Shown piece by piece: positions 3,034-24,800 of a DNA stretch of 64,000 nt; positions within the stretch are counted from its first letter, which is position 1; each line of letters starts with the position of its first letter. The notes under the pieces are model-generated. The model was not told the origin of the DNA. It worked only from the letters and a program-made list of their open reading frames with translations, and made no database searches. A program made the position numbers and the translations under genes. Source of the stretch: an uncultured Algibacter sp. (GTDB lineage: Bacteria > Bacteroidota > Bacteroidia > Flavobacteriales > Flavobacteriaceae); the NCBI GenBank assembly GCA_937958265.1, contig CALGNX010000001.1, positions 186,001 to 250,000 on the forward strand. Reading direction: 5' to 3'.

Positions 3034-3064
3034 TTCCCTAAAGCAAACCCAAATATAGACGAAT
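3034..3064 (+). promoter_or_regulatory. Putative shared operator, copy A
   Basis: TTCCCT at 3034-3039 is followed by 18 bases and then GACGAAT at 3058-3064, preceded by TATA. The right half is identical to copies at 13533-13563 and 18478-18508; the left half is degraded. It lies about 50 bases upstream of the TANNTTTG box of the glycosyltransferase operon, where an activator could sit. Confidence 0.5.
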
Positions 3065-3112
3065 AGCTGCTTTGTGAAGACAAATAAAACAATTAGTAGG
3101 AATTAAATTATT

Positions 3113-3120
3113 TATATTTG
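3113..3120 (+). promoter_or_regulatory. Promoter -7 box TATATTTG
   Basis: TATATTTG matches the Bacteroidetes TANNTTTG element. Transcription would start near 3126, which makes the TTG at 3126 an unlikely start codon and favours the ATG at 3150. No TTG -33 box is found at the usual distance, consistent with dependence on an activator. Confidence 0.6.
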
Positions 3121-3149
3121 TTAAGTTGCCATTATCCTTCAAACTATTA

Positions 3150-6100
3150 ATGAAAGAAACCTCAAATAAACATCTAATTGTTGCCTTATTATTAGGTATT
3201 GCATTTCATGGCACCTGTATATTTTTCACCTTAGAAACCACTTACGATGCTTTAATACATTTATTTTTTGCAGATCATTATGCAAATAGTTGGTTTGAAC
3301 CTTGGAATTATAGGTGGTATACTGGTTTTACTGTAATGAGCTACCCACCTCTAGTACACCAATCTATAGCCGTACTCTCATTAATTGGCGGCTTAAAATT
3401 TGGTATGTTTAGCGTTGCGCTAATTAGTATTGTGCTTTTTATTACAGGAGTTTATCGGTTTTCATTACTTATAACATCGCATAGAGCAGTTGCCGGATAT
3501 GCTGCTATTTTAGCTGTTTTATCATCCTCTTTTGTTGAAACGCTTCATGTTTTCGGACAATTACCAAGTATTATAGGTATTTCAGTCTTAATGCATGCTT
3601 TACCAGAAATATATTTATGGCTAAAAACAGGTCGTTACAAATACCTTTTCACATCTCTGTCGCTTATATCTGTTACCGTTACCTCACACCACGTAACTCC
3701 TATTTTTGGAATGTTATTTTTTATTTTTCCATTAATTGGCATGGTTATTATGGATGTTTCCCGAGAGCAAGTAAATACTGTTAAGGGCATAACGTTTAAA
3801 GTTTTTATTATAAGCTTTTTTAAACTTTTTAAGCGTATTATAAGTTTTGGTATGCTCTCGTTAGTTATTATTGTGGGTTGTATTCTCCCCTACTGGATAA
3901 ATTCTAAAAAAAACCCTATAACCCAAGTCCCAATTCCACATGGTTCGCGCGATAATTTTTTAGAAATCACATCTTCCGGACTCGTTTTCTTTTTAATTCC
4001 TTGGGGTATTTTATTAGTTTTATTGCCGTACATATTTTATAGATATTACGCTAAACGTTATTTATTTTTTGGTTTATCTATTACTATTCTTACCGTTTTA
4101 GGAACAGGTGGCACCACATTTATACCTCGATTAGTTTTAGGTGAAATGGCATTTAATATTTTAACTCTAGACCGTTTTACACTTTGGGCCTCCATAATGT
4201 CTTTACCCATTTTTGGCGAGTTTGTTTTCCGTTTTGTACAAGGCGACTTAAAACAACTTATCCAAAACAAATTTGGCGCCATTTACCATAGAATAATTGG
4301 AGGTATACTTGCCGGTTTATTTTTGTTTATGACAATTTTTACTATGAGTCTTAGTTATTTTAGGCCATCGCAACCTCAACAAATTAAAATGTTACCTATT
4401 ATTAATTTTTTAAGCCAGGACCAACATGATAATTGGCGGTATATGACTTTAGGTTTTGGCGATCAAATGGCATGGCTATCTGCACAAACTAATGCTATGA
4501 GTGTAGATGGCAATTACCATTCTGCAAGGCGTTTGCCAGAGCTTACAACCCGCCCAATTGAGCGGTTGGAAAATTCAAAATTTAAAGGCGTTGAAGGTAT
4601 TGGCTCTTTGCAACAATTTTTAACAACACCCGAAAAATATAATTTTAAATACATTTTCTCGAACGATAAATTTTATGATCCCATTTTATATTTTTGTGGT
4701 TGGCAACGTTTAAGGCAATTAGAAAATGGTATTCAAGTTTGGGAAAAACTAAATGTACCTCCTGTTTCGAGTATTTTACCGAAAGAGGATGTAGCTAAAT
4801 GGTTAAAAATTCTTTGGGGTGTTATGCCTTTTTTAACTGTAATTATAGCTTTTATTTTAAATATTCAAATGCTTTGGGTAAATGCATTGAAAACAAGAAT
4901 TAAGGCCGATCCCGTATTTTTTAAATTTCAGAATAATTATTCTAAATTCTCTAAAGGCATACTTACAATTACACATTTTTGGTCTGTAGTACTAGCTATT
5001 ATTTTTTGCTATGGCGGTTACATTTTCTACATTAAAAATGATGCGCACCATAATCCTAAAAATGTACTGCTAGCGTATTACGATGCGCTGGATTTTAAAA
5101 AATTTGGAAAAGCTTATAGCTTAATAAATCCTAAAAGCAACTTACCAATTGCGCAGTACATGCTAGAAATATCAGTCACAGACGGCTTACTAAGTTCTTA
5201 TGCTAAATTAGATGCTATTGAAACTAATATAATAGCCAAAACAGATAATTTAGCCACTGCTAGAGTGCATACAAAATGGATTACACCATTAGAAAAAATT
5301 AACAAAACAGATTACAAAACATTAACCAAATTAAACGGTAAATGGTATGTAAACCCAGACACTATTGATTTGGATTTACCACCAGACCAATTGTATTCTG
5401 GTAATGTTACAAAATATTTTAACCAAGGACGACGCCGCATTACCACCGAGCAAACCCACCACGAAGATGTTTTAAAACAGCCTGTTTTAGAAATTATTAC
5501 CGCAAAACTTGTTAAACACAATGCTAGTTATGCTATAATTGGTGAAATTCAAAATATAGATAACGTACCTGCAGATGTTGTTTTAAAAGGTACTTTATAT
5601 AATGATGATAATAAAGAATTAGCGACCTATAATGCCAAGTACCATATTAAACATAAATTAATGCCTAAAGAAGTAAGTTCTTTTAAAATTAATTTTGAAG
5701 GTATTGCCTGGTCAAAAACACAAGATTCTATCCCTAAAACATTTAACCCAGACGAGTTTACACCCGTTGAATTTGAAGAACAACCCACTAAATTTAATTT
5801 ACAACTTGCCGGAAATGTTTCAGGATCGGACCTATACAAAGGCGCAACGCTAAGCAGTTTAAATGTTTCAAAAAAGACTATTACTGGTAAATTATACAAT
5901 TCAGGATTGGCAGAAGTTACTATTCCACAACTATTATTTACGTATTATAATAAAGATAAAACTATGCTTTGGGTAGACCATCTATTTATTCCAGAAGGTA
6001 TAAGGCAACAACGCCAACAACCTTTTAAATACCCTGTTTTAACAAAGGATACTATTCAAGTTATAAATAACAATATGGCAAATTGCTATGTAAACGGCTT

Positions 6101-6239
6101 ACCCAATATATCGATATCCAACAAAATAGTACCAAACAGAATTAAAAATCAAACACGAGCTTTGTTACAACCTATCGATAATGAGAACTACAGCTTTATT
6201 AAAATTGAAATTAACACGTATATAGGAAACCCTAATTAA
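3150..6239 (+). CDS. Large GT-C-like membrane protein (PTPS-related domain)
   Basis: About 1029 residues from the ATG at 3150; a TTG start at 3126 is possible but coincides with the predicted transcription start. Roughly the first 600 residues are a many-times membrane-spanning region. The first loop carries TTYDALIHLFFADHY and YRWYTGFTVMSYPPL, the pattern of the Pfam family named 6-pyruvoyl-tetrahydropterin synthase-related membrane domain. Despite that name it resembles GT-C glycosyltransferases that use polyprenyl-phosphate sugars, with an acidic residue in the first external loop. The last 400 residues are largely soluble and of unknown fold. The gene overlaps the next one as TAATG. I infer addition of a sugar to a surface polysaccharide; the donor may come from the GT2 domain at 11909-13048. 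Confidence 0.7.
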   Translation: MKETSNKHLIVALLLGIAFHGTCIFFTLETTYDALIHLFFADHYANSWFEPWNYRWYTGFTVMSYPPLVHQSIAVLSLIGGLKFGMFSVALISIVLFITGVYRFSLLITSHRAVAGYAAILAVLSSSFVETLHVFGQLPSIIGISVLMHALPEIYLWLKTGRYKYLFTSLSLISVTVTSHHVTPIFGMLFFIFPLIGMVIMDVSREQVNTVKGITFKVFIISFFKLFKRIISFGMLSLVIIVGCILPYWINSKKNPITQVPIPHGSRDNFLEITSSGLVFFLIPWGILLVLLPYIFYRYYAKRYLFFGLSITILTVLGTGGTTFIPRLVLGEMAFNILTLDRFTLWASIMSLPIFGEFVFRFVQGDLKQLIQNKFGAIYHRIIGGILAGLFLFMTIFTMSLSYFRPSQPQQIKMLPIINFLSQDQHDNWRYMTLGFGDQMAWLSAQTNAMSVDGNYHSARRLPELTTRPIERLENSKFKGVEGIGSLQQFLTTPEKYNFKYIFSNDKFYDPILYFCGWQRLRQLENGIQVWEKLNVPPVSSILPKEDVAKWLKILWGVMPFLTVIIAFILNIQMLWVNALKTRIKADPVFFKFQNNYSKFSKGILTITHFWSVVLAIIFCYGGYIFYIKNDAHHNPKNVLLAYYDALDFKKFGKAYSLINPKSNLPIAQYMLEISVTDGLLSSYAKLDAIETNIIAKTDNLATARVHTKWITPLEKINKTDYKTLTKLNGKWYVNPDTIDLDLPPDQLYSGNVTKYFNQGRRRITTEQTHHEDVLKQPVLEIITAKLVKHNASYAIIGEIQNIDNVPADVVLKGTLYNDDNKELATYNAKYHIKHKLMPKEVSSFKINFEGIAWSKTQDSIPKTFNPDEFTPVEFEEQPTKFNLQLAGNVSGSDLYKGATLSSLNVSKKTITGKLYNSGLAEVTIPQLLFTYYNKDKTMLWVDHLFIPEGIRQQRQQPFKYPVLTKDTIQVINNNMANCYVNGLPNISISNKIVPNRIKNQTRALLQPIDNENYSFIKIEINTYIGNPN

Positions 6240-7441
6240 TGCACTTGAAATTAACATACATACTCATTTCTGGATTAATAACTTTATTGGCTTCAACTAC
6301 CAGTAAAAATAATGAAACTATTCAACTTTTAACGAAACAAATACAGTTTGAAGCTGGAGATACTATTGAATTAAATTTTTTAACTACCAGCACTAAAACA
6401 CCTAGTTTATATATTAGTAGTAGTTATGGTTCCACACTTGTTAAAGCAAATTTAGAATCTGGTATTTTAAAATATAGCATACCGCAATTAATATCAAATA
6501 AAAAGGGACTAGTTAATTGGACATTACTAAGTGAAAATAAACTTTGCGGGAAATTAAATATTACTGCTAACCAAAAAGCAAAAGTACTTGAAACCTATTT
6601 AGGACCTCCAAGTATTGAAGCTGGCGGAACAGATTACGCTATGTTAGTAGTGATTCCCAGTGATTTATATGATAATCCGCTAGCCGATAGTACATTGGTT
6701 ACAATAAAGCATCAGTTTTTAGAAAACCAAGGCAATAATACGGTTTTTATAAAAAATGGTATTGCTTATAAAAATATCTATTCAGGAAAAAAGTCAGGGC
6801 GCATTCTAGCATCATCAGAATGTTTGGCGTTTAACTCTAAAGAATATACGATAAACGTTATGCCTGCCATACCTTCAAATTTTAAAATTAATTATAATAG
6901 AAATCATAAATTTGCTGATGGCAACCAAATTACAACCTTTTCAACCTCTATTATAAAAGATAAACATGGCAATATAGTTAGCGATGGCACTTATGTGGAA
7001 TTCTTTATAACCAATACATCAAACGTTATACTAAAAACGTTTGGAACAACATTACATGGTATTGCAAAGGCTAAAATGATTCACCCAGACCATGAAGACC
7101 AATGGCACGTTAATGCATTTATTGAAGGTATGGCAGAAAGTAATACCATTACTTTAAAATTTTTACCTATAATTTCCCATTTTAACGTTTTATTCTCACA
7201 AAATAATAGAATAATAACCGTGGGGCCTTTAAAAAGTTTTATGAATCAAATGGTGCCTGATGGCTTAGAAGTTGAACTATCAGTCTATGAAAATAACATA
7301 AAAACCCAAACACTTTACAAAAGTTCTTTTGAGGGTTTTGCTACTTTTAAATTGGATACAAATAAATTCCCTAGTAAAAACTATACCTTTAAAATTAAAA
7401 CGGCAGGTATAGAAAAAACACGCACCAACGTAAAACTATGA
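6239..7441 (+). CDS. Secreted protein with Ig-like repeats
   Basis: This 400-residue protein starts at the ATG overlapping the preceding stop (TAATG) and ends overlapping the next start (ATGA), so the three genes are translationally coupled. Residues 1-20 look like a signal peptide, followed by beta-rich modules. KHGNIVSDGTYVEFFI and DLYDNPLADSTLVTIKH match the big-1/invasin type Ig fold, where a D.xGNPV phrase precedes each strand set. There is no T9SS tail and no lipobox. I know no assigned function; placement between a membrane glycosyltransferase and a glycosidase suggests a periplasmic scaffold or polysaccharide-binding role. Confidence 0.55.
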   Translation: MHLKLTYILISGLITLLASTTSKNNETIQLLTKQIQFEAGDTIELNFLTTSTKTPSLYISSSYGSTLVKANLESGILKYSIPQLISNKKGLVNWTLLSENKLCGKLNITANQKAKVLETYLGPPSIEAGGTDYAMLVVIPSDLYDNPLADSTLVTIKHQFLENQGNNTVFIKNGIAYKNIYSGKKSGRILASSECLAFNSKEYTINVMPAIPSNFKINYNRNHKFADGNQITTFSTSIIKDKHGNIVSDGTYVEFFITNTSNVILKTFGTTLHGIAKAKMIHPDHEDQWHVNAFIEGMAESNTITLKFLPIISHFNVLFSQNNRIITVGPLKSFMNQMVPDGLEVELSVYENNIKTQTLYKSSFEGFATFKLDTNKFPSKNYTFKIKTAGIEKTRTNVKL

Positions 7442-8955
7442 CGGGTATAAACAAAAACATATTACGAAGCATTCTAGTGCTCTCTTACATTGCCATTATA
7501 GCATTTGTTCTATTTGGTATTGGTAGTTTATTAAGTTACTTAAATACCGGAGCCGACCGTAGTAAAATGCTGCATACTGAAATTAAAAAAGTAGATCAAT
7601 ATTTACCAAAAACAGCATGGGAACCTTTAAATAATGAAGGTAGGCCAATGGATAATCAAACTTTAAACGCGATACAGAATGATTATTTGGATGCTTGGTA
7701 TGTTAAACATGTTGCCTATAAAACTAACACCCTAGTTGGTATTGATGATTATTATACAGAAAATGCTAGGAAAAATATTATTTCTATTATTTCAAAAAAC
7801 AAATCTGAAAATATTTCTATTGTTAGTACTACCTTACAGCACCATATTACTTTAGAGTTTTTTAGTGAAGATGGACAATTAGCTGTTATTAGCGATAAAG
7901 ATGTTATTGAATATAAAAGAATTTATAATGATGAATTACTCGTTTTAGAAACTACCGAACAAACCAACTATAAAATAATTTTACTTTTAGAAGATGGCTT
8001 TTGGCGCATTAGGCATATCATTAAAGAAAAAAGTAAAAATTTCAATTCAAAATTTAAACCAGCTCAAAAAAACATAGGTTTACTAAAAGGAATTAATTAT
8101 TACCCAAAAGCATCGCCGTGGAATATGTTTGGCGATAAATTTAATACAAATACAATTTTACAAGATTTCGATATAATAAAGAAAGCTGGTTTAACCAGTA
8201 TTAGAATATTTGTACCCTATGAAGATTTTGGAAAAGCAAATGTAAATTCTAAAAAACTAAAGAAACTTAAAAAAGTACTAGATTTAGCACAAATAAAAAA
8301 ACTAAAGGTAGTTATAACGCTTTTTGATTTTTATGGCGATTACTCTGTTTTAAATTGGACATTAAATCAACACCATGCAACAACTATAGTTTCAAACTTA
8401 AAGAATCATCCTGCTTTATTGGCTTGGGATATAAAAAATGAACCTAATTTAGATTTTGAATCCCGTGGCACGCTATTAATTACTGCATGGTTAAATTACA
8501 TGATTGATGTAATTAAAACTACAGACACCATCCACCCCGTAACCATAGGTTGGTCTAACGCAGAAAGCGCTACAATTTTGAGTGATAAATTAGATTTTAT
8601 TACGTTTCATTACTTTGAAGATTTAAATGCTTTAGAAGCAACATATCTCAATTTAAAATTAGAAATACCCAATAAACCCATAGCAATTACCGAGTTTGGT
8701 ATATCTTCATATAAAGGCTTTTGGAATCCTCTAGGAAGTACTGAGTTAGACCAAAGTAACTACCACAAAAAAGCGCAACGTATTTTTAAACAAAATACTT
8801 TAGGTTTTATGGCATGGACGCTATACGATTTTACTACTATACCTAAAAAAGTTGTTGGTGTTTTACCCTGGAGAAAACGAGCACAAGAGCACTTTGGCTT
8901 TATTAAACAAAATGGAAATATAAAACCTGCTTTTAAACACATTAGTAAAGAGTAA
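7438..8955 (+). CDS. Membrane-anchored GH5-like glycosidase
   Basis: 505 residues. An N-terminal transmembrane segment at about 10-35 is followed by a region around 60-200 that looks like an NTF2/SnoaL-type fold (DAWYVKHVAYKT, DGFWRIRHIIKE). From about 215 there is a TIM barrel of glycoside hydrolase clan A: LLKGINYYP, the acid/base glutamate in DIKNEPN near residue 333, and the nucleophile glutamate in ITEFG near 418. It starts with a 4-base overlap (ATGA) with the gene before. Synthase-type exopolysaccharide loci commonly carry such a glycosidase (BcsZ, PslG, PelA), which trims polymer in the periplasm; I infer the same role here. The family could also be GH2 or GH39-like. Confidence 0.75.
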   Translation: MTGINKNILRSILVLSYIAIIAFVLFGIGSLLSYLNTGADRSKMLHTEIKKVDQYLPKTAWEPLNNEGRPMDNQTLNAIQNDYLDAWYVKHVAYKTNTLVGIDDYYTENARKNIISIISKNKSENISIVSTTLQHHITLEFFSEDGQLAVISDKDVIEYKRIYNDELLVLETTEQTNYKIILLLEDGFWRIRHIIKEKSKNFNSKFKPAQKNIGLLKGINYYPKASPWNMFGDKFNTNTILQDFDIIKKAGLTSIRIFVPYEDFGKANVNSKKLKKLKKVLDLAQIKKLKVVITLFDFYGDYSVLNWTLNQHHATTIVSNLKNHPALLAWDIKNEPNLDFESRGTLLITAWLNYMIDVIKTTDTIHPVTIGWSNAESATILSDKLDFITFHYFEDLNALEATYLNLKLEIPNKPIAITEFGISSYKGFWNPLGSTELDQSNYHKKAQRIFKQNTLGFMAWTLYDFTTIPKKVVGVLPWRKRAQEHFGFIKQNGNIKPAFKHISKE

Positions 8956-8958
8956 CCA

Positions 8959-10161
8959 TTAAGCCATAGCAACTTTAGTTTTCCCCTTATTAGATATAAT
9001 AGTTTTAAATGTATTTAAATAAATATCTGCTATTTGAGACATAGGATGTGCCGTTGCTGCTTTATAATTAGCCTTACCTAAAGCTACTCTATAGCTTGTG
9101 TTGGTTACTATGTTTTTAATAGCTTCTGCCAAACTCTCAACCGATGTTGGCTCAAAAAACTCGCCTTTATAGCCCTCATCTTGCACAAGCAAAGCTAAAT
9201 CTCCTAAATCTGGCATTACCACAGCCTTGCCATAACTTCCTGCCTGGTGTAATACCCCTGAACTTCCTGTTGTAGAGGTATACGGGAACACCACTACTGC
9301 ACTTTGGTTAAACAACATTGGCACTTCATATTCTTCCACATATCCTGTAAAACGCACTTGTGGCACATGTTTATAATCTGCTTGTACTTTAGCTAAATAC
9401 CCTGGTACATTAGGGTTATCTGTTCCTGCAATAACAACTTCCAAGTTTAACCCTGTAGATTTTCTAACCTGCGCTACGGCTTCAATCATGCCTTCTACTT
9501 TTTTATAGGTTCCAAACTTCCCAAACGTCATAATTTGCATTGGCTCTGTTGGTATATTGTAATCTGGCTCATCAGGAATTTCGAATGTACCATGTGGAAT
9601 TAATTTTATATTTTTAACATGATATTTTTTTTCTAAAATAGCCACGTATTTTTGCATTGTAACCGCAACAACATCTGCCTGAAGAATTAAACGTGTTAAG
9701 CTTGTACCAATAAAGCTATAAATTTTTTGCATAAATTTATTACTTGTAAATCCTGCACTTCCTAAATCTACTTCCTCAAGAATATTATGTAATAATACAA
9801 TGTTTGGTATTTTTTTAAGTTTGCAAACTAAAGGTAGCATTAAACCTAAGGCTGCTGCAATTTTTTTATCTCCAAACTTCATAAATTGCAAATTAAACAA
9901 AACAGCTTGTGGTTTCACTTGACTTATGGCTTTGGTAACATTCAAAATATTTTTATAACTATTAAACGTCCAACATTCTTTAATCGTAACTTTACAACCT
10001 GCTTCGCTAAATTCAACATCTTTTTCACCATTTGTAGTATCTGTTAATAATACTAACTCGGTAATGGTTTCTTTTTGCCTAAAATGTTTTACTAAATGAT
10101 AAGCGTATTCATTTAACGTTACTTTACTTGGTGGGTACGCTGTTACAATGGCTAGTTTCAT
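8959..10161 (-). CDS. GT4-type glycosyltransferase
   Basis: A 400-residue GT-B fold glycosyltransferase. The N-terminal Rossmann half starts MKLAIVTAYPPSKVTLNEYAY; the C-terminal half has IMTFGKFGTYKKVEGMIEA (nucleotide-sugar site) and VRFTGYVEEYEVPMLFNQS. Where GT4 enzymes usually have EX7E, this one has STTGSSGVLHQAGSYGKAVV, so the second Glu is Gln. The GSSGVLHQA pattern looks like its own subfamily rather than decay. The gene follows the flippase on the same strand after about 100 bases with no terminator between, and converges on the GH5-like gene with a 3-base gap. Likely a cytoplasmic step in assembling a lipid-linked saccharide. Confidence 0.82.
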   Translation of the reverse strand: MKLAIVTAYPPSKVTLNEYAYHLVKHFRQKETITELVLLTDTTNGEKDVEFSEAGCKVTIKECWTFNSYKNILNVTKAISQVKPQAVLFNLQFMKFGDKKIAAALGLMLPLVCKLKKIPNIVLLHNILEEVDLGSAGFTSNKFMQKIYSFIGTSLTRLILQADVVAVTMQKYVAILEKKYHVKNIKLIPHGTFEIPDEPDYNIPTEPMQIMTFGKFGTYKKVEGMIEAVAQVRKSTGLNLEVVIAGTDNPNVPGYLAKVQADYKHVPQVRFTGYVEEYEVPMLFNQSAVVVFPYTSTTGSSGVLHQAGSYGKAVVMPDLGDLALLVQDEGYKGEFFEPTSVESLAEAIKNIVTNTSYRVALGKANYKAATAHPMSQIADIYLNTFKTIISNKGKTKVAMA

Positions 10162-10260
10162 GGTTTATTTTATTTTTACATTTAAAGATTAATACAACTA
10201 AAATTTATAATTTATAAATGGTCTTATCGCTACTACAAACAACCAAAAGGTTACCTAAAT

Positions 10261-11511
10261 TTAAACCCTCTTGTTCTTGATTTGATCATACTTAAAAAAC
10301 ACAAGTTGTATGACCAACAATAATACCATAGCCACAATTTGCATATGTACCACATCTTCCAAACTGTCATGATAAATTATAACCAAGCCCATTTGTAACA
10401 CACCAAATATGCCTGAAATTATAACGGGTACATACTGCTCTAACGACAAGTAATAATAAGCGAAAATATTTGAGATAGCAAACATAGACGTAGCAATAGC
10501 ATATTGCCATAATAATGGTGCCATAGCTATGTAACTATTACCAAACAAAAGACTTATAATAATTTCTGGAAAGCATAAACAAACTAAAATAATTGAAATA
10601 GAAATTGCCGCTATATAACCTACATATTTAAAGAGTATTGGTGCCGTTTCCTTACCCTCTTTTTTAAGTTTAACCACTGTTGGTAATAAAAGCATTACAA
10701 ACATCCATGCAATAAAATAAACAATTCGCCCTATTAATGCCAATGAGGCATACAAACCGGCCTCATAAGAAGTAAAATAATGTTTCACTAAAAGAATATC
10801 GCTATTGTTTATAATAATTTGAGTAAGCTCATAAAAAGCAGTTATTACAAAAAAACTTTTTATTTCTTTTAAATGTGCCTTACTTAATACTAAAGCTTTT
10901 TTTGCTACAAGCGTTGGGAATTTAAAAGGTACCAAACCAAATAAAAATGATGCTAAAATACCTACCGCAATAACCACAGAAGATTTAATATCAAAAATTA
11001 AAATAAGCCCTAAGGTTATAATTAATCGACTTAACATCTCGAATTGGTACGTTATAGATAAAGATTTTAATTCGTTTTTACCTTGAAAAACACCCCGGTT
11101 TACGCTCATTAAAAAGTAAAGTGGCACACCACAACCAAAAACAATAAACATTTTAAAAGACGAGGTGTTAAATAAGCGTTGCAATTCACCTGCAAAAACT
11201 ACTATAAACAGCCCCATAATAGCACCCACCAACAAAGCGCTTTTATAAATTTTAGATATAAAACTGTTAAAGATATCCTGCTCGAAAAGCACCGAAAATT
11301 TAGCTGTAACCAATTGAAATGTCATAGCCGCAAAACTCAACACCAATAAAAAGGTTATAAGCACAGCGGCATCTGCAAATTGCGCTGGCCCTAAAACACG
11401 ACCAAGTATTAAATTATATAAATAATTACCACCATTTACAACTAGCACACTTAACATAAATATATGCTCTGGAGTTACTTTTTTTAAATTTAATATTCCT
11501 GTTATTTGCAT
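10261..11511 (-). CDS. Wzx-like oligosaccharide flippase
   Basis: A 416-residue membrane protein with about twelve hydrophobic segments and the MOP-superfamily layout of Wzx-type polysaccharide exporters: a near N-terminal YLYNLILGRVLGPAQFADAAVLI, the pair of helices around NRGVFQGKNELKSLSI, and the middle stretch INNSDILLVKHYFTSYEAGLYASL, where family members have a conserved Asp. Such proteins turn lipid-linked sugars from the cytoplasmic to the periplasmic face. It heads an operon with the GT4 gene, and its upstream region is shared with the divergent REC-GT2 gene and contains an operator copy. Confidence 0.82.
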   Translation of the reverse strand: MQITGILNLKKVTPEHIFMLSVLVVNGGNYLYNLILGRVLGPAQFADAAVLITFLLVLSFAAMTFQLVTAKFSVLFEQDIFNSFISKIYKSALLVGAIMGLFIVVFAGELQRLFNTSSFKMFIVFGCGVPLYFLMSVNRGVFQGKNELKSLSITYQFEMLSRLIITLGLILIFDIKSSVVIAVGILASFLFGLVPFKFPTLVAKKALVLSKAHLKEIKSFFVITAFYELTQIIINNSDILLVKHYFTSYEAGLYASLALIGRIVYFIAWMFVMLLLPTVVKLKKEGKETAPILFKYVGYIAAISISIILVCLCFPEIIISLLFGNSYIAMAPLLWQYAIATSMFAISNIFAYYYLSLEQYVPVIISGIFGVLQMGLVIIYHDSLEDVVHMQIVAMVLLLVIQLVFFKYDQIKNKRV

Positions 11512-11661
11512 AATCCCTTTTTTAAAATTTCAAATTATTTAATTACGCAATATTCTTTAAGTACCAAGCACTAAAATTATCTTTACCATAATAACTTAAT
11601 TTAGTAGCACTTTAGCGTCTAGTACAAATATCTATTTTTACATAGCACTATAACTATAAAT

Positions 11662-11692
11662 TTCGTCCAGATACATTTAGCTTTAGGTGAAT
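11662..11692. promoter_or_regulatory. Putative shared operator, copy B (divergent region)
   Basis: TTCGTC (11662-11667), 18 bases, then GGTGAAT (11686-11692). The left half is the perfect complement of GACGAA; the right half keeps GNNGAAT, preceded by TA and followed by G as in other copies. It lies in the 397-base region between the flippase operon and the REC-GT2 gene and could serve both. The rest of 11512-11908 is AT-rich with nothing else recognised. Confidence 0.5.
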
Positions 11693-11908
11693 GCACTAGT
11701 TTTTTTATTTAAAGTAAATTAATAATTACAAATCTATATCTATAGCTCTTAAAGTATAAATTTCGCGCGCTATAAAATTACATCTTATAAATATAACACT
11801 TAAACGCTATTATTTAAAAATACACGATGTATTTACTTATAAAAATATTACATTTACAGTAATGCTCTTTTAAAAAAATGATACAATTAACTATAAGCAC
11901 CTACAATT

Positions 11909-13048
11909 ATGATTAAAATCTTAGCCATAGATGATCAGCAACTTATTTTACTATCATTAGAAAAACATTTAACAGATTTAGGGTTTGATATTAAATGTGC
12001 AAACTCCGGAAAAGATGGTTTAAAAGTGTTCGATATTTTTAAACCTGATATTGTAATTGTAGATATTAATATGGACGGTATGTCTGGCTTAGATGTTGTA
12101 AAAAAAATTAGACTAGAAAGAAAATCTAAAACAAAAATATTAGTCCTTTCTGGTAATACCAATGAAGATACTATAATTGATGGTTTTGATTTAGGTATTG
12201 ATGATTATATGAAAAAACCTGTTTCTCTTAACGAGGTAACCGTTAGAATTAATAGAATTTTCGGACTTAAAAACATTAAATACCAGGGCAATAACAAAAA
12301 AGATCAAATGCTTCAAAAACGTTGTGTTGGTGTTGTAATACCTTGTTACAATGAAGAAGAACGTTTGCTAAGCAAAGAATTCATTGACTTTATTGACAGT
12401 AATTTAGGTTACCATTTATGCTTCGTTAACGATGGTAGCACTGATAAAACATTAGACGTTTTAAATAATTTAAAAACGGGCAGAGAAACTAATATTAGTG
12501 TTTATAATTGCAAAAAAAATGGCGGTAAAGCAGAAGCAGTTAGGCAAGGTGTTTTACATTTGGTTGAGGATCCTCAACTAGATTATATTGGATATTTAGA
12601 TGCCGATTTATCTACAGATTTTAGAGATTTTGACGATTTAGTAAAAACTATTGAAACTTCAAATTTTAAAATTGTTAGTGGTTCTAGAATGACGAGAATG
12701 GGTGCTAACATTGCCAAAGAGTCTGCACGTGCTATAATAAGTAAAACGATAAACCTTATTATAAGAACCATTCTAGGCATGTCTTTTAATGATACACAGT
12801 GCGGAGCAAAAATCATGGATAAAGATATTGTAAAACTTATGTTTAAAGATAAATTTATTACACGATGGATTTTTGATGTCGAAATTTTTATGAGAATGCG
12901 TAAACATTATGGTAAAGAGAAAGCAATTTCCTATATATGTGAACAACCTCTTAAACGTTGGGTTCATGCAGATGGCTCCAAATTATCCATGAGAGACTCT
13001 GTTCAAATTGTAGGACAACTAGGCCAAATTGCAATACATTATAGATAA
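11909..13048 (+). CDS. Response regulator fused to GT2 polyprenyl-phosphate glycosyltransferase
   Basis: 379 residues in two domains. Residues 1-120 form a CheY-like receiver: acidic pocket AIDDQ, phospho-acceptor Asp52 in IVIVDINMDGMSG, and the lysine in DDYMKKP. From about 140 there is a GT2 catalytic domain of the DPM1/ALG5 type: VVIPCYNEEERL, FVNDGSTDKT, GGKAEAVRQG, the metal-binding LDADLST, SGSRM, DTQCGAKIMD, RWIFDVEIF and the C-terminal LKRWVHADGSKLS. ALG5-like enzymes make a polyprenyl-phosphate sugar that GT-C enzymes use on the outer face. All key residues of both domains are present, so phosphorylation may directly control sugar-donor synthesis (inference). It lies divergent to the flippase and its upstream region carries an operator copy. 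Confidence 0.85.
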   Translation: MIKILAIDDQQLILLSLEKHLTDLGFDIKCANSGKDGLKVFDIFKPDIVIVDINMDGMSGLDVVKKIRLERKSKTKILVLSGNTNEDTIIDGFDLGIDDYMKKPVSLNEVTVRINRIFGLKNIKYQGNNKKDQMLQKRCVGVVIPCYNEEERLLSKEFIDFIDSNLGYHLCFVNDGSTDKTLDVLNNLKTGRETNISVYNCKKNGGKAEAVRQGVLHLVEDPQLDYIGYLDADLSTDFRDFDDLVKTIETSNFKIVSGSRMTRMGANIAKESARAIISKTINLIIRTILGMSFNDTQCGAKIMDKDIVKLMFKDKFITRWIFDVEIFMRMRKHYGKEKAISYICEQPLKRWVHADGSKLSMRDSVQIVGQLGQIAIHYR

Positions 13049-13105
13049 TATGCAATAAAACAACTACTATTTTTTTTAAAAATTTAAAAGTATAATTGAA
13101 TAGAA

Positions 13106-13387
13106 TTAAGCAGTGCGGTTTGTTTCCATACTTTCATAAATATCTTTACAACCGTAACCGATAATATCAATTTTTTTATTGTAGTATAATGCTGCTAAAA
13201 AAAGATTTTCAATTACTTTTAAACCATTTTTACCAATAGCTGTTACACCGCTAATATTAATGGTTAATGTCTTTTTATAAAGCAATAAAAAGCCCATATG
13301 CCTTTTAAATTTATCGACTGTAGTTGCATTATTAATACTACCTTCCAACAAAACCACTCCGTTATTTTCTTTAATTACTAAATCCAT
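13106..13387 (-). CDS. STAS-domain protein
   Basis: 93 residues matching the STAS fold of anti-sigma-factor antagonists: strand EENNGVVLLEGSINNATTVDKF-type opening, helix, the strand LTINISGVTAI, then helix KNGLKVIENLFLAALYY, and IDIIGYG. In SpoIIAA-like antagonists the loop reads DSSG with a phosphorylatable serine; by my alignment the equivalent here is GKNG, so the serine is missing. It may work as an adaptor and not through a phosphorylation switch. Divergent from the TPR/barrel gene, with an operator copy between them. Function inferred from fold only. Confidence 0.7.
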   Translation of the reverse strand: MDLVIKENNGVVLLEGSINNATTVDKFKRHMGFLLLYKKTLTINISGVTAIGKNGLKVIENLFLAALYYNKKIDIIGYGCKDIYESMETNRTA

Positions 13388-13532
13388 AATCTTATAAAAT
13401 TTAAATTATATTACTTTTATTTCTCAACAACTCACTTATAAATATACCTTAAAATATTTTGAATTATTCTTGGCTAATTAGTAAATCGTTCTATACAAAT
13501 ATGGCATTATATTTAACGTAATAACTTTCAAA

Positions 13533-13563
13533 TTCGTTTAATAGCGCTTTGGTATAGACGAAT
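13533..13563. promoter_or_regulatory. Putative shared operator, copy C
   Basis: TTCGTT (13533-13538), 18 bases, then GACGAAT (13557-13563), preceded by TATA. The best-preserved inverted repeat of the set. It lies between the divergent STAS and TPR/barrel genes and ends 48 bases before the ATG at 13612. Confidence 0.55.
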
Positions 13564-13611
13564 GATTGAATAGTATTGATTAACTTGCAATTACAATAAA
13601 ACAAATACAAT

Positions 13612-15672
13612 ATGCCCCAAAAAAAACGAATTATATTGCTGCTTTTATTTTTATCTGTCGCAATCCATGCTCAAGATATGCGAGATGGTTACACCTATTT
13701 AGAAACCGGTAAATATGAACAAGCAGAGGTTTTTTTCAAAAAAGTTTTAAAAAATTATCCAAATAATAAAACAGCTAGATTGTGTTACGGAAGAGCTATT
13801 GGTTTAAATAACCAACCTGAACAAGCAAACGTAATTTTTAGTAATTTACTATCCGATTATCCAACAGATTTTGAAGTAAAACTAAACTATGGCGAGTCGC
13901 TATTATGGAATAATAATTTCCTAAAAGCAAAACACTATTTTAAAAGTTTAATTGATGAAAACCCCAGAAGTTTTCCTGCATTATTAAGTTACGCCAATAC
14001 CCTTTCAAATTTAGAAGAATTTGATGAGGCCTTAAATTATGTTGATAAAGCACTAAACGTTTTACCCGGTAATGTTAACGCACTTACTTCAAAAAAATAT
14101 ATAAATTTGGGCTATGCCTATAAAAACCAGCAACTGCAAAACTTTAATGAAGCAGAGCTATTATTAAAAAACAACTTAACGCTTTTCAAAGATGATAAGG
14201 ATACTTTATTAAATTTAGCAAACCTCTATTTAATCATAGGTAAGTTTAATAACGCTGAAAATATTTATAATACCATTGCTAGTAATAAAGCCAATAAAAC
14301 ACTTGCATTAAACGGATTAGCTTTAGTAAACCACCTAAAAGGTAAAGAAAAAAATGCTTTAATTACAAGCCAAGAAGCCTACAAAACCATTTCTGAATTA
14401 ACCGATATCAATTTGATAAAGCAAACTAAAGAACGCTACATACAAGCGCTTATTTGGAATAAAAAATTTAAAGAAGCTAACATATTAATTAATGAATTAC
14501 ATGCAGCACAACCTAACACAAACTGGATTTTAGCATTACGCGCTACCCTTAATATTTATAAAAGTGATTTTAAAAAAAGTATTACAGATTACAACTATAT
14601 TTTAGAAAACGATAGCACATCGTTTGATGGTAACTTAGGAAAAGCAAATACACTAAAAGCTTTAGGCAAATACAATAAGGCTTACCAAGCTGCAGAAAAC
14701 ACTTTAAAATATTATAAAAAACAAAAGGACGTTACCAATTTTATTTCAACCTTAAACACCAATTTCACGCCGTTTTGGGAAACAAAAGCAACCTACTCTT
14801 TTGATAATGGTGATAATACAACTTTTGGCACACAAACCAAAGTAGAATTTCCAACATCAACAAAATTTAAATGGTTAGTTCAATATGGATTTAGAACCAC
14901 CAATAATAAGGTAACTAATTTTAATGCGCTGTCAAACGATTTTTCTTTAGGTTTTGGATATCAATTAATATCAAATATTACCTTTACAGGTACGGCTGGC
15001 GTAACCTCAGCAAAGGCAAATACGAATGACTACACTAAATTAGTAACTGATTTGGCGCTTCATATAAAACCTTTTAAATTACAGGTTTTAGATATTGGAT
15101 ACAAAAGTGAAATACAAAATTTTAATGCTGAATTATTAAACAGAGAAATAGTATTAAATAACATTTATGCTAATTATAATTTAAGCACTAACGTTAATTT
15201 AGGTTGGTTTACACAATATTTTTTTACATGGCAAAATGATAACAATACGAGAAACTTACTATTTACATCGCTTTACTATAATATTCTACCAAAACCAGCA
15301 TTAAAAGGAGGTTTAAACTACCAATACATTACCTTTAAAAATCAGGTACCAACTATTTATTTTAGCCCAAAACAATTTAATGCAGCCGAAATATTTATAA
15401 ACATTATTAAAAATGAAACCAATACAAAAACTAAAGCATGGTATTACGAACTTACCGGTGCAATAGGTTTACAATATATTAATGGTAATAGTAGCCAAAA
15501 CACCTACCGCATACAAAGTAAATTAGGGTATAAATTTTCTCCACGTACATTTTTAAACATTTACGGTACGCGTAGTAATATCGCTTCTGCTACTGCTGCT
15601 GGTTTTACGTTTAATGAAATTGGAATACGTTTTAAATGGTACTTAACCCATACACCTATTTTTAGAGATTAG
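13612..15672 (+). CDS. TPR / outer-membrane beta-barrel polysaccharide exporter
   Basis: 686 residues. A signal peptide (about 1-20, ending AIHAQ) precedes a TPR superhelix to about residue 370, with repeated phrases such as YLETGKYEQAEVFFKKVLKNYP, FKSLIDENPRSFPALLSYANTL and LKALGKYNKAYQAAENTLKYY. The last 310 residues are alternating polar/aromatic strands of an outer-membrane barrel, ending with an aromatic-rich strand (GIRFKWYL). The PgaA, BcsC and AlgK-AlgE exporters have the same two-part plan: periplasmic TPR guiding polymer to an outer-membrane pore. I infer that role here. An operator copy sits 48 bases upstream. Confidence 0.75.
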   Translation: MPQKKRIILLLLFLSVAIHAQDMRDGYTYLETGKYEQAEVFFKKVLKNYPNNKTARLCYGRAIGLNNQPEQANVIFSNLLSDYPTDFEVKLNYGESLLWNNNFLKAKHYFKSLIDENPRSFPALLSYANTLSNLEEFDEALNYVDKALNVLPGNVNALTSKKYINLGYAYKNQQLQNFNEAELLLKNNLTLFKDDKDTLLNLANLYLIIGKFNNAENIYNTIASNKANKTLALNGLALVNHLKGKEKNALITSQEAYKTISELTDINLIKQTKERYIQALIWNKKFKEANILINELHAAQPNTNWILALRATLNIYKSDFKKSITDYNYILENDSTSFDGNLGKANTLKALGKYNKAYQAAENTLKYYKKQKDVTNFISTLNTNFTPFWETKATYSFDNGDNTTFGTQTKVEFPTSTKFKWLVQYGFRTTNNKVTNFNALSNDFSLGFGYQLISNITFTGTAGVTSAKANTNDYTKLVTDLALHIKPFKLQVLDIGYKSEIQNFNAELLNREIVLNNIYANYNLSTNVNLGWFTQYFFTWQNDNNTRNLLFTSLYYNILPKPALKGGLNYQYITFKNQVPTIYFSPKQFNAAEIFINIIKNETNTKTKAWYYELTGAIGLQYINGNSSQNTYRIQSKLGYKFSPRTFLNIYGTRSNIASATAAGFTFNEIGIRFKWYLTHTPIFRD

Positions 15673-15769
15673 ACTTTATCCTAATAATATTTTTTTTAAA
15701 CTTATCGAGTTACTAAAAATTTACATTTGTATATGGCTATTATATTCACTAGGATTATTCAACCTAATA

Positions 15770-15803
15770 AAAAAGGCAAAAAACCTACGTTTTTTGCCTT
15801 TTT
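15770..15803. terminator. Bidirectional rho-independent terminator
   Basis: AAAAGGCAAAAAA and TTTTTTGCCTTTT form a 13-bp stem around a CCTACG loop, with A and T tracts on both sides. It sits between the convergent TPR/barrel gene and the T9SS protein gene and can serve both. Confidence 0.85.
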
Positions 15804-15835
15804 ATAGAATAGCACTTACTGCTTTTTATTTAATA

Positions 15836-18421
15836 TTAATGAATACACAATTTTAGAGTTTTATAGTTTGTGTATTTACTTTTAATACTACAAAAATAAA
15901 AACCAGTAGTTAAACCATCCAGGCCAAGAGGTATTCTGTTATGTCCTGATTTAATATTAATTTTTAATTGTTTTACTAAACTTCCAACTTTATTATAAAC
16001 TAATAATTGTGCAGTTTCTGTATTTTTTGCTGAAAAATGAATGGTTGTTTGCGAATACATAGGATTTGGTATTGCTGTTGTTTTAACTTCATTAGCTGTT
16101 AAATTTTTAGCAACCGCTAATACATTGTTTTTCGAGAAACGTAATTGTCTCAAAATCATTTTCTTAGTAACTTTTTCACCATTTTCAGATAACATGGTAA
16201 ATACTATTGATGTTACGTCTTTAACCTCTAGCGGTAAACCATTAGTTGATTTAAAATCTGAAAATAATACGTTGTAATTGGTTAAACTATCGGTTAATAC
16301 AATACTTGTTTTGTACTGCGTTTCCCAATTGTTAATACTTTCTTTAACTAACCTTATTATTAGTTTACCGGTGCCTTTAGCCTTTAATTGAAAACTGCTA
16401 TACGCTGCTAAATTTACTGGATTAAATTTTGGTGTTAAAGCTCTATAAGCTGCAATATACTCGCTTGTTGTAGCTTCTAGACTGATATTCCGCTCTACCG
16501 CATATTCATCGTCATTAAAGTCTTCATCGTTTAACGCTGTGCTATAATTAGTAACGGATGTTGTTGGCGCTGCATCATCATAACCCCATGGACCGTCTGA
16601 CATGAATAAATCGTCTGGAGTATGCACACCATCGCCAATTCTAAAGCCTATATCAAATAAGTGGCCTGTATTTATTTCTATTTTGGAAATATAATTGGGG
16701 CTTAAGCTAATACTGGATGTTATATAATCTATATCTTCCGTTTCAGCACGTCTTAATCCGCCATCAAACGTAATAGATTCTGTTCTATTTGTATTTACAA
16801 TTTCTAAATTTAATTTACCTTTTTTATAGCTTCCCGTTCTTACAAATACTGTTGGTGGTAGGGAATTATTATAGCTTATTATTGGTCTTTGTACATCTAA
16901 TAATTTTACAACCTCCTCTCCTAGTTTTACTAAATCATCTAAAGAATTAGACCAAATTTGAAAATTATAAAACCCCACACCGCTTTCATACTTATCGAGA
17001 TTCCAATGGCTTTCAATTCCAAAATTCGCACCATTATTTACTAACTTAGCCGAAAGACTTAGTACAAACTCTAAACTACCATCAATAGTGCGTATTAAGG
17101 ATTTTATAAATTGTTGATTATTAATTTCAATTGTTGATACGGCTATTAGTTCTGCGCCCAATAGTCTATCACAAATGTATTTTGTGTGCTCATAAACATC
17201 TTTGTCCGTTTTAAGTAATAATACAGATGCAACAGTCTTCTCGTTTCTAATATAATCTACAGAGTACACCGCATTAGCATTTGTAATACCTATTAAATCT
17301 TTTGGAGAGGATTCAACAACAACATCTTCTTGTATAACGCCAAGAGGCATTAAATCGGATAATTGAAATGCGTTATTCTTACCTGTATTTCTTTTTCCAT
17401 ATGTTAATGATTTAGTAAAACGCTTTGCCTTAGTGTTATCAAACTTATAGTTTGTTTGCGCTCTATTAAAGTTTCGTTTAGTTATCTGTTGTGATAGTCT
17501 ATTATTACTTTCTAATCCGCCTGCATTTGCACTAGATGAACTAAACGATTTAAGTATGGGGCAACCTGTATAACCAGAGCACGATGGATCTTCGCAATCT
17601 ACTAGGCCATCGCCATCATCATCAATACCGTTATCGCAAATTTCTTGTAATACTGGAGCGGTTGGGCAGCGCGCACCATCGTTTTGAGAACTTGAAGGGC
17701 CAAAGGCAAATAAATTAGATTCCATTACTCCACTAGCATCTAAATCTTGTACGCTTTGAATCACATATATGGTTCCTGTTTGATTTGCAGACACATAAAA
17801 TCTTCCTGATGCATCAAAATAAACCGCTCCATACGTATAATTTAAACCAGAGAGAATTGGTACTTCACCTAAATTTTTCACTTCTCCTGTTTCTGCGTTT
17901 ATTCGGTACAAAATATTTGTTTTCTTTTCTACAGCATATAATTTGTTATCTACCGCATTAAATGCCCAATCATGTATGCTAATATTTTTAGATAACTTAT
18001 GCGTCGCCTCATAGCTTACATAATTATTAGATTCTGGATTTAAATTTATAGCGTAGTATGAAGATCCGCTACCTTTTAAATAATACGTCCCATTTAATGC
18101 TACATCACCAACATAACAACCACTATCTGGTAATTCATCGATATAGAATGATGTTGTTTTAAAATTTTTACCAATTTTAACAATTGTTTTTGCTGGCGCA
18201 CTTAAAGACCCCCAAATAAAACCATCTGAGGTGTTATATGCCGCAGCATTAATATTTGCCTCGGTTATATCTGTAGCGATTTCGAATGAATTTCCGGACG
18301 CTAAATCGATGGCATAAACATCATTATGCTGAAATAAGTAAGCACTATAATCACAATTAAAAGGTACTTCTTGTGCTACTGCCTGTATCGTAAAAACGAT
18401 TAATAATATTATTTTGTTCAT
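15836..18421 (-). CDS. Secreted multi-domain protein with T9SS type A tail
   Basis: 861 residues: a signal peptide (ending AVAQ); a beta-propeller-like start of the DUF6923 type (AYLFQHNDVYAIDLASGNSF); at about 260-285 a calcium-loop-like CDNGIDDDGDGLVDCEDPSC; a long central beta-rich part with no family I recognise; and at about 770-861 a Por-type secretion tail (IPNPMYSQTTIHFSA ... GLTTGFYFCSI). The tail directs export and surface attachment by the type IX system. An operator copy lies upstream, tying it to the polysaccharide genes, so it may be a surface or matrix protein. No enzymatic motif is visible. Confidence 0.75.
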   Translation of the reverse strand: MNKIILLIVFTIQAVAQEVPFNCDYSAYLFQHNDVYAIDLASGNSFEIATDITEANINAAAYNTSDGFIWGSLSAPAKTIVKIGKNFKTTSFYIDELPDSGCYVGDVALNGTYYLKGSGSSYYAINLNPESNNYVSYEATHKLSKNISIHDWAFNAVDNKLYAVEKKTNILYRINAETGEVKNLGEVPILSGLNYTYGAVYFDASGRFYVSANQTGTIYVIQSVQDLDASGVMESNLFAFGPSSSQNDGARCPTAPVLQEICDNGIDDDGDGLVDCEDPSCSGYTGCPILKSFSSSSANAGGLESNNRLSQQITKRNFNRAQTNYKFDNTKAKRFTKSLTYGKRNTGKNNAFQLSDLMPLGVIQEDVVVESSPKDLIGITNANAVYSVDYIRNEKTVASVLLLKTDKDVYEHTKYICDRLLGAELIAVSTIEINNQQFIKSLIRTIDGSLEFVLSLSAKLVNNGANFGIESHWNLDKYESGVGFYNFQIWSNSLDDLVKLGEEVVKLLDVQRPIISYNNSLPPTVFVRTGSYKKGKLNLEIVNTNRTESITFDGGLRRAETEDIDYITSSISLSPNYISKIEINTGHLFDIGFRIGDGVHTPDDLFMSDGPWGYDDAAPTTSVTNYSTALNDEDFNDDEYAVERNISLEATTSEYIAAYRALTPKFNPVNLAAYSSFQLKAKGTGKLIIRLVKESINNWETQYKTSIVLTDSLTNYNVLFSDFKSTNGLPLEVKDVTSIVFTMLSENGEKVTKKMILRQLRFSKNNVLAVAKNLTANEVKTTAIPNPMYSQTTIHFSAKNTETAQLLVYNKVGSLVKQLKINIKSGHNRIPLGLDGLTTGFYFCSIKSKYTNYKTLKLCIH

Positions 18422-18477
18422 GATATGTTGTATTTATACCATAAAACTAGTGTAAAAGTAAATCTTAAAATGTATTT

Positions 18478-18508
18478 TTCGTTGGATGAAAATTAAGTGT
18501 AGACGAAT
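18478..18508. promoter_or_regulatory. Putative shared operator, copy D
   Basis: TTCGTT (18478-18483), 18 bases, then GACGAAT (18502-18508), preceded by GTA and followed by GG. It lies 57 bases upstream of the start of the T9SS protein at 18421 and just downstream of the LytTR regulator gene. Spacing is identical to the copies at 11662 and 13533. Confidence 0.55.
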
Positions 18509-18530
18509 GGAAGTGTTTTAAAGTTTAAAA

Positions 18531-19241
18531 TTATAATAAGTTTAATCGTTTCATTAATTCAGGACGATTAGAACGACTTACGGGAACAACCTCTTTTTTT
18601 ATAAGAACACTATTATCCTCTATATCAATTATTTTTAAAACATTAATTATATAGGAACGATGTATTTTTAAAAAAATACTACTTGGTAATTTCTCTTCAA
18701 TTTTTTTTAATGTAGAGTGTACGGTATAATTTTTATGTTCTGTTTTTAAAAGTATGTAATCCCCTTTGGCTTCTATTAAATATATGGTAGAGATATCTAT
18801 TTTAATTAATCGTCTATTAATATTAATATATAAAGCATTTCCCAATGGGGTTTCTAAAGCTTTTTTAGAATTCAAATTTAGTTTAGTTACATTTAAGCTT
18901 TTTGCTTTTTGAACGGCTTTATTGAAGCGCTCTTGAAGTATTGGCTTTACCAAATAATCTAAAACACATTCATATTCAAACGCTTGTATAGCGAATTGAG
19001 GATCGGAAGTGGTTAATATTATTTTTGGTGGATTTTTTAAGCTTTCAATAAAATCGAATCCTGTAAAATCTGGCATGTGTATATCCAAAAAAATTAAATC
19101 AACCTTGTTTTGGTTTAAATATTTAATAGCTTGCATAGCATTTGGAAACGCTTCTAACAGTTTTAAACTAGGTGTTTGATTGCAAAGTTGCGATATAATT
19201 GCCCTAGCCGTGGCCTCATCATCAATAATAATACAGTTCAT
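18531..19241 (-). CDS. LytTR-family response regulator
   Basis: 236 residues. Receiver domain 1-120 with acidic pocket IIIDDEA and phospho-acceptor Asp53 (LIFLDIHMPDFTGFD); LytTR DNA-binding domain from about 130 with IYLIEAKGDYILLKTEHKNYTVHSTL and FLKIHRSYIINVLKI, the family hallmark. Last gene of the seven-gene signalling operon, 9 bases after the Hpt gene, so it is the likely DNA-binding output. No sensor of the LytS type is adjacent; phosphate probably comes through Hpt. An operator copy lies immediately downstream, in front of the T9SS protein gene, which makes this regulator a candidate for binding it (inference only). Confidence 0.9.
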   Translation of the reverse strand: MNCIIIDDEATARAIISQLCNQTPSLKLLEAFPNAMQAIKYLNQNKVDLIFLDIHMPDFTGFDFIESLKNPPKIILTTSDPQFAIQAFEYECVLDYLVKPILQERFNKAVQKAKSLNVTKLNLNSKKALETPLGNALYININRRLIKIDISTIYLIEAKGDYILLKTEHKNYTVHSTLKKIEEKLPSSIFLKIHRSYIINVLKIIDIEDNSVLIKKEVVPVSRSNRPELMKRLNLL

Positions 19242-24682: not shown

Positions 24683-24800
24683 TTATTATTTTATTAAATT
24701 AAAATTAGCGAGTAAGTTTAAAAATAAAATAATATGTTGAAATACAATATCTATTTCGGCAGACTTGTGTTTTAATATAGGTGTTTTACGTTTAAGTATC

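Follow-up and report, generated by a model that had tools for sequence, protein, structure and literature searches.

The polysaccharide locus and the adjoining signalling operon

The DNA analysed here, referred to as the window, is a stretch of 64,000 nucleotides from an uncultured Algibacter sp. of the Flavobacteriaceae (assembly GCA_937958265.1, contig CALGNX010000001.1, positions 186,001 to 250,000 of the forward strand; coordinates below count from its first letter). It carries a polysaccharide locus, an adjoining operon of sensor and phosphotransfer proteins whose last gene encodes a REC-LytTR response regulator, and five operators made of direct repeats with a 21-bp period, through which this regulator very probably co-activates its own operon and the exopolysaccharide units.

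The polysaccharide locus begins with a large protein described earlier as GT-C (3150..6239, + strand), in which no Pfam family was found. Its ATG at 3150 (ATGAAAGAAACCTC) recurs in relatives, and the listed TTG start at 3126 is probably wrong. Two genes follow on the same strand (6239..8955), one for a 400-aa protein with weak Ig-like matches and one for a GH2-type TIM barrel protein. Beyond them lie a GT4 glycosyltransferase (8959..10161, -), a Wzx-type flippase (10261..11511, -), a receiver domain fused to a GT2 glycosyltransferase (REC-GT2; 11909..13048, +), a STAS-domain protein of 93 aa (13106..13387, -; PF01740 at E 4.6e-4, just under the cut-off), a TPR protein with a partial match to PgaA-type export porins (13612..15672, +; TIGR03939, far below the cut-off) and a type IX-secreted protein with DUF6923 and a C-terminal sorting domain (T9SS gene; 15836..18421, -). 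The TPR protein and the flippase liken the locus to PgaA- and Wzx-type polysaccharide export; the gene set as a whole is not known to match Pga, Pel or cellulose loci. For comparison we used stretches around REC-GT2 from 19 genomes, several of them extended, and added four genomes; the stretch from G056 holds little beyond the REC-GT2 gene, full-length relatives of which occur in many Flavobacteriaceae. Gene order is largely conserved in relatives (GT-C, 400-aa protein, GH2-like protein, GT4, flippase, often STAS, TPR exporter, often T9SS, signalling operon), and G043 has a different locus. Receiver fusions recur: besides the REC-GT2 gene of the window (11909-13048), L042 has one (1623-2756) next to a stand-alone receiver (2788-3150), and in the non-homologous locus L129 a receiver is fused to a Bac_transf sugar transferase (10273-11460). 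Such fusions suggest direct phospho-control of the enzymes.

The signalling operon is read from the - strand in the order REC, H-NOX, kinase, FIST, kinase, HPt, LytTR. Its first gene encodes a stand-alone receiver (24272..24682) and its second an H-NOX protein (23733..24272) closely related to the solved Kordia algicida H-NOX 6bdd (E 2.6e-99; PF07700 133 bits, cut-off 25.5). The hallmarks of this family are the HNOB domain, a histidine that ligates the heme and a YxSxR motif, and the window protein has His102 and YKSSR. A PAS histidine kinase (21757..23733), a FIST-domain protein (20620..21753), a second histidine kinase (19571..20620), a 105-aa protein (19251..19568) and the REC-LytTR response regulator (18531..19241) complete the operon. 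The 105-aa protein matches the HPt family of Pfam at E 0.0094, below the cut-off; its His55 is invariant in 41 rows, and its model (pLDDT, the predicted local distance difference test, 93) has HPt proteins as top Foldseek matches, with template modelling scores up to 0.76 and none reaching E 0.001. By its modelled four-helix fold and invariant histidine it qualifies as an HPt phosphotransfer protein. The regulator has PF00072 and PF04397 above cut-off and carries the LytTR signature FhRhHRS as FLKIHRS, with K for the first R; F190, K192, H194, R195 and S196 are invariant in an alignment of 18 sequences (A4), across which the DNA-binding half is nearly invariant. Nitrate/nitrite-like genes adjoin the operon (24971-31541: a molybdopterin oxidoreductase, a rubredoxin/NIR_SIR protein and an MFS transporter), and a functional link between the two is conceivable.

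The operators are arrays of direct repeats

All five operators lie on the + strand of the window and consist of a 13-bp core unit (u2) and a same-direction copy that starts 21 bp before it (u1) or after it (u3). Operator 1 (3054..3087), in front of the GT-C unit, has u2 TATAGACGAATAG (3054-3066) and u3 TGAAGACAAATAA (3075-3087); operator 2 (11661..11694), antisense to the flippase gene, has u1 TTTCGTCCAGATA (11661-11673) and u2 TTTAGGTGAATGC (11682-11694); operator 3 (13532..13565), between the STAS (-) and TPR exporter (+) genes, has u1 ATTCGTTTAATAG and u2 TATAGACGAATGA; operator 4 (18477..18510), antisense to the T9SS gene, has u1 TTTCGTTGGATGA and u2 TGTAGACGAATGG; and operator 5 (24776..24809), antisense to the REC/H-NOX/LytTR operon, has u1 TATAGGTGTTTTA and u2 TATCGACGAATGG. 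A scan of the whole genome, with a model from 50 training sites that include these five, returned five sites at E <= 1e-3, all within the locus (6.9e-4, 2.8e-4, 1.4e-9, 1.6e-10 and 8.7e-4 for operators 1 to 5, operator 4 being the genome's strongest), and the next best match had E 0.10. When a profile was built from the 45 sites outside this genome, exactly the same five came out on top in the window (u2 at 18498, 13553, 11682, 3054 and 24797, in that order). With the full model four of them score above the best of 60 Markov windows (17.7); site 24797 passes it in the u1+u2 register (21.9 vs 17.3) and site 3054 also in the u2+u3 register (19.2 vs 18.7), so that all five exceed the Markov best in at least one of three registers.

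A preliminary description of the window had reported, in front of four transcription units, inverted half-sites TTCGTY and GACGAAT exactly 18 bp apart. The four sites are present where it placed them, all intergenic and with TA before each right half, and they are real; a fifth, at 24776-24809, was missed, and the candidate regulon is larger than the four suggested, since it includes the signalling operon. The inverted pairing itself is another matter. When sites are aligned across genomes, a unit of 13 bp emerges, TGTAGAYGAATGG, flanked at 21 bp on either side by weaker copies, all in the same direction, so that the operator comprises two or three direct repeats throughout the relatives; the consensus of 50 aligned sites (alignment A1, for which 50 of 65 intergenic anchors were used and 15 near-duplicates or doubtful anchors excluded) is AnnTTTnGTTnAnTnAnAnTTTAnTGTAGACGAATGGTAnATTnnTnTAGATnAA. 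When offsets were scanned in both orientations around 80 anchors, some of them coding, the direct offsets -21 (z 4.2) and +21 (z 4.1) stood out, the next reaching 2.5. In 75 of the 76 operators found upstream of REC (one was dropped because its u2 differed from the core at more than 3 positions), direct identity at -21 was 8.55 of 13 against a background of 3.39, whereas inverted identity at the N18 spacing was 4.92 against 3.14; near-perfect direct repeats are common there, for example GTGTAGACGAATGACAGTTAAGTGTAGACGAATGG in L223. Over the 98 sites of the fetched loci the corresponding values were 6.23 direct and 4.15 inverted.

A palindromic operator, in which a symmetric dimer would bind inverted TTCGTY and GACGAAT half-sites separated by 18 bp, is therefore very hard to sustain. 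It draws support from the exact TTCGTY-N18 arrangement, which occurs at 15 of the 98 sites, and from the three STAS-only sites, where inverted identity (6.33 of 13) comes near the direct value (7.0). By target, the exact arrangement was found at 3/3 STAS-only, 4/12 T9SS, 3/18 TPR/STAS, 1/1 flippase-only, 1/16 REC, 1/19 GT-C, 0/15 GT4 and 2/14 other operators. It is present in 4 of the 75 REC operators, so that inverted half-sites are not conserved at a fixed spacing, and it is missing from site 1, where the sequence proposed as left half at 3034 (ATTCCCT) is no half-site and the wrong partner had been chosen for GACGAAT; the direct copy 21 bp downstream, which matches at 9 of 13 positions, is the better one. 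TTTCGT is a recurrent feature of STAS, TPR and T9SS operators, is rare at those of REC and GT-C, and is absent from those of GT4. The TTCGTY half is best read as a diverged repeat unit (TTTCGnYnARTGR aligned to TGTAGAYGAATGR) whose likeness to the reverse complement arose by chance. Operators of the LytTR type have direct repeats of 9 bp, 11-13 bp apart (period about 21); here a period of 21 exceeds the other offsets and the inverted arrangement, both over all sites and at the REC operators.

The argument that the identical spacing speaks against chance held in part. The strict pattern TTCGTY-N18-GACGAAT matches two places in the window, sites 3 and 4, and none in 100 shuffles. If as many as 3 mismatches are allowed across the two 7-mers, a spacing of 18 yields exactly the four sites; however, the other 19 spacings between 10 and 29 yield 0-3 each, and sites 1 and 2, with 3 mismatches each, are at background. 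Genome-wide, TTCGTY-N18-RACGAA returns the two strict sites alone, as many as the backward control (2 and 2), and TATAGACGAAT by itself occurs at 5 places against 3 for its backward control. What lifts all four sites above chance is their conservation in relatives. A TTCGTC half-site at 37209 before msrA was considered and set aside as a single unit outside the top profile matches.

The direct-repeat architecture has evidence to contend with as well. On the 6-bp core alone, direct (2.80 of 6) and inverted (2.90 of 6) identity are level over the 98 sites, which favours the palindrome to that extent. For two small groups of sites 21 is not a clear optimum (T9SS, 6.25 at -21 and 6.08 at -17; 'other', best at -25), and u1 and u2 agree at only 3-7 of 13 positions within the window. 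The sites of relatives were found with a profile seeded by four window sites and 13 sites of relatives, so that the ranking with 45 sites is not wholly independent. Finally, TTCGTCTAC fits the broad consensus of the LytTR family, [TA][AC][CA]GTTN[AG][TG], in part, by eye at 6 of 9 positions including the N. LytTR repeats diverge widely between published operators (PMC6193735).

Operators lie at a fixed distance from the core promoter

Read in the antisense direction (CCATTCGTCTACA...), the operators are followed by a -7 box, TAnnTTTG. With ties split, the distance between the starts of u2 and of this box is 61-62 bp in about 51 of the 72 antisense promoters; for REC operators it is ambiguous, at 62 or 82. 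If the box is placed at -12 to -5 (PMC9723704), the two repeats would be centred near -47 and -68, that is, just upstream of the core promoter and at a constant position. The distance from operator to ATG is likewise nearly fixed for most targets. In the window the boxes are GATATTTG for the flippase unit (11625..11632, -) and CATATTTG towards STAS (13496..13503, -), both 62 bp from u2, and TAGTTTTA for the T9SS gene (18442..18449, -), 61 bp from u2. The GT-C unit has its own -7 box on the opposite side of its operator (TATATTTG, 3113..3120, +), assigned from the sequence and the aligned box in relatives. In front of the TPR exporter stands a -7-like box (TAACTTGC, 13581..13588, +) that agrees with TAnnTTGY, the flavobacterial SM5 box described in F. 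psychrophilum (PMC9723704). We also considered whether the two halves might themselves form a -35/-10 promoter, which was rejected because a normal -7 box stands at a fixed distance downstream.

This geometry bears on the direction of control. It is rather unlikely that LytTR represses some or all of the units instead of activating them: at the TPR promoter u2 ends just 15 bp before the -7-like box, where a bound protein could block polymerase, but at the antisense promoters the repeats precede the -33 region by a constant distance, like those of published LytTR activators.

Wherever a stretch contains two or more sites (20 stretches, 95 sites), these share one strand. Two weak opposite-strand matches (L128, L131) overlapped stronger sites and were merged away, and among 300 of 318 listed profile matches at least two, both in L255, are opposite in strand to the rest. 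A replication-oriented or mobile element was rejected as the cause, because the antisense targets (REC operon, T9SS, STAS/flippase, GT4 and the divergent REC-GT2) share one strand and gene arrangement explains the bias. Of 41 sites with a sense target, 29 have a target in antisense as well. Where the only target is in sense, the site is frequently weaker, as for GT-C in the window and for TPR in G002, G004 and G009; TPR in G006 is an exception. No operator was found before the GT4 gene of the window, whereas in 15 fetched relatives one stands directly before this gene as its own.

The motif accompanies the LytTR regulator in relatives

An ortholog of the LytTR regulator (E <= 1.7e-83, about 60% identity or more) is present in 29 of 98 relatives, and the motif (E <= 1e-3, under stricter filters that lose weak matches) occurs in 26 of these 29 genomes against 2 of the 69 without the ortholog. 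Among LytTR-bearing genomes outside the training set it was found in 12 of 15 (Fisher 3e-10, uncorrected for kinship). Of 80 named loci, REC was not found in four; with a profile built without REC sites, all 76 loci with REC and upstream sequence have an antisense operator before REC that scores above 40 mononucleotide shuffles, and in sense orientation this holds for 3 of the 76. Counts of the first kinase (HK1) in these loci were set aside, since the two kinases match each other's searches. L256 and L259 (Kordia) are weak among these 76. In G043 the LytTR module stands before a non-homologous polysaccharide locus (a UDP-glucose dehydrogenase type enzyme, an epimerase, a receiver-Bac_transf fusion and STAS) with the same operators.

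It is unlikely, then, that the operators are genuine but bound by a second LytTR protein or some other factor. These genomes do encode other LytTR proteins, of about 36-48% identity, yet the motif tracks this ortholog group, lies before the operon of this regulator in all 76 loci and is found with it even at the non-homologous locus, and the DNA-binding half of this regulator barely varies, as described above. The idea that one factor governs the whole locus, with the neighbouring LytTR protein as candidate, is thus well supported by sequence, because the direct repeats have a period of 21, the promoter spacing is fixed, motif and regulator co-occur, and an operator precedes the LytTR operon.

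Two further arrangements were seen in relatives. In G002, G004 and G009 (L038, L041, L047) an extra open reading frame, absent from the window, lies between the T9SS gene and LytTR, with its own operator 80 bp upstream. In the same genomes an operator also occurs elsewhere, before a similar gene trio (L176, L174 and L175, respectively), the first gene of which encodes an S49 peptidase in L174; the downstream proteins tested had no Pfam match, and the trio is a possible distant member of the regulon.

Discussion

How a gas sensor might be connected to exopolysaccharide production can be sketched as follows. The one-operon phosphorelay, comprising H-NOX and FIST/NosP-like sensors, two kinases, a receiver and an HPt protein, would phosphorylate the LytTR regulator. 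Its protomers would bind the same-direction repeats of about 13 bp side by side on one face of the DNA, as a period of 21 bp corresponds to two turns, and would sit just upstream of the core promoter. Phosphorylated LytTR would then activate its own operon through operator 5 and, through the other four, the GT-C unit, the flippase unit (perhaps with REC-GT2), the STAS and TPR-exporter units and the type IX-secreted protein, resulting in coordinated exopolysaccharide export in response to nitric oxide. While operator architecture, promoter spacing, the list of sites, co-occurrence with LytTR and the HPt fold can be read from the sequences, LytTR binding, activation as the direction of control, the order of phosphotransfer and nitric oxide as the signal are what we infer. 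We consider this scheme, an auto-activating LytTR regulator (18531-19241) fed by a phosphorelay with nitric-oxide sensors and acting on the exopolysaccharide units through these operators, to be very probable.

Several observations count against it. The co-occurrence of motif and LytTR is confounded by kinship and synteny. Three LytTR-bearing genomes, G018 (whose LytTR is 74% identical), G020 and G027, fall short of the motif threshold, with best E values of 0.003-0.0085; in the stretches of G018 and G027 no operator before REC exceeds the profile threshold, and G020 has one. Conversely, G057 and G061 carry the motif without an ortholog. In G057 (L274) the REC-H-NOX-kinase operon is decayed, with an in-frame stop in H-NOX and a short FIST match, and no LytTR gene was found in the stretch examined; a near-perfect direct-repeat operator persists there. 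G061 has a diverged version of the module with diverged LytTR proteins. As for the sensors, the FIST protein of the window has FIST and FIST_C domains above cut-off but reaches 66 of the 450 bits of NF041558 (NosP), far below the cut-off, FIST is undetected in 29 of 80 named loci, and H-NOX in 6 of 80, three of which are cut by contig ends.

These last points raise the possibility that regulator and operators are as proposed and the signal is a different one, such as oxygen, redox state or an unknown ligand of the kinases. Operator and LytTR are kept in three of the 76 REC loci without a detected H-NOX (L227, L257, L270), as they are in the loci without a detected FIST gene. Since H-NOX or FIST is undetected in some loci, nitric oxide cannot be the input everywhere, and as an input it is likely rather than certain. 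On the other hand, H-NOX at E <= 1e-50 is present in 26 of the 29 relatives that carry LytTR and in 1 of the 69 that do not; weaker matches, with E from 1e-45 to 1e-22, occur in 5 more of the latter. The H-NOX of the window also closely resembles one whose structure is solved. We regard a different signal as less probable than nitric oxide.

The operator type as such is already known. Published LytTR operators lie immediately before -35 and are built of direct repeats of 9 bp, most of them separated by 12 bp, and the regulators control their own expression (PMC6193735). Among these systems, HdrR and BrsR of Streptococcus mutans resemble the window in that two direct repeats, spaced with a period of 21 bp, directly precede the core promoter and, as we propose here, in that the regulator controls its own operon together with an output locus (PMC6193735). 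The window differs in repeat sequence, in the frequent third repeat, in the Bacteroidota -7 box, in one operator used divergently, and in having kinases with HPt in place of a membrane inhibitor. The AgrA protein of Staphylococcus aureus has the quorum-peptide kinase AgrC as its partner and, unlike the regulator described here, neither an HPt protein nor a gas-sensor operon. AgrA is likewise a REC-LytTR response regulator and binds direct repeats in front of the promoters P2 and P3 (PMC4227749).

In Proteobacteria, biofilm signalling by H-NOX and NosP mostly has cyclic di-GMP or quorum sensing as its output. Such signalling shares with the window nitric-oxide sensors coupled to kinases, and reportedly acts on biofilm, whereas the window has a proposed LytTR activator directly on exopolysaccharide promoters. 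In the accessible part of PMC6769237, retrieved for H-NOX plus LytTR, LytTR is mentioned once, for AgrA. The Kordia algicida H-NOX (6bdd) is close to the window protein, and the Kordia genome carries the same LytTR module (L259); the one paper found on this H-NOX, in the part available, deals with the isolated heme protein by simulation, and no regulon was seen there. We found no published account of the motif, in agreement with the preliminary description, nor of an H-NOX/LytTR pathway or of nitric-oxide sensors combined with HPt, LytTR and exopolysaccharide control, in a literature search that covered subscription journals thinly.

Perhaps one nitric-oxide phosphorelay controls exopolysaccharide at two levels, through LytTR on the genes and through phosphorylation of transferase-fused receivers such as REC-GT2 or the receiver-Bac_transf protein of G043. 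We offer this tentatively and think it on the whole doubtful; if true, enzyme activity and gene dose would respond together without cyclic di-GMP. The operator, with its predicted promoter geometry, may serve to find targets in Winogradskyella, Lacinutrix, Psychroserpens, Algibacter, Kordia and Aquimarina. It provides a testable candidate regulon for a structurally solved kind of gas sensor, the flavobacterial H-NOX, and the proposed pathway would give marine flavobacteria a route from nitric oxide to exopolysaccharide that runs through a LytTR activator.

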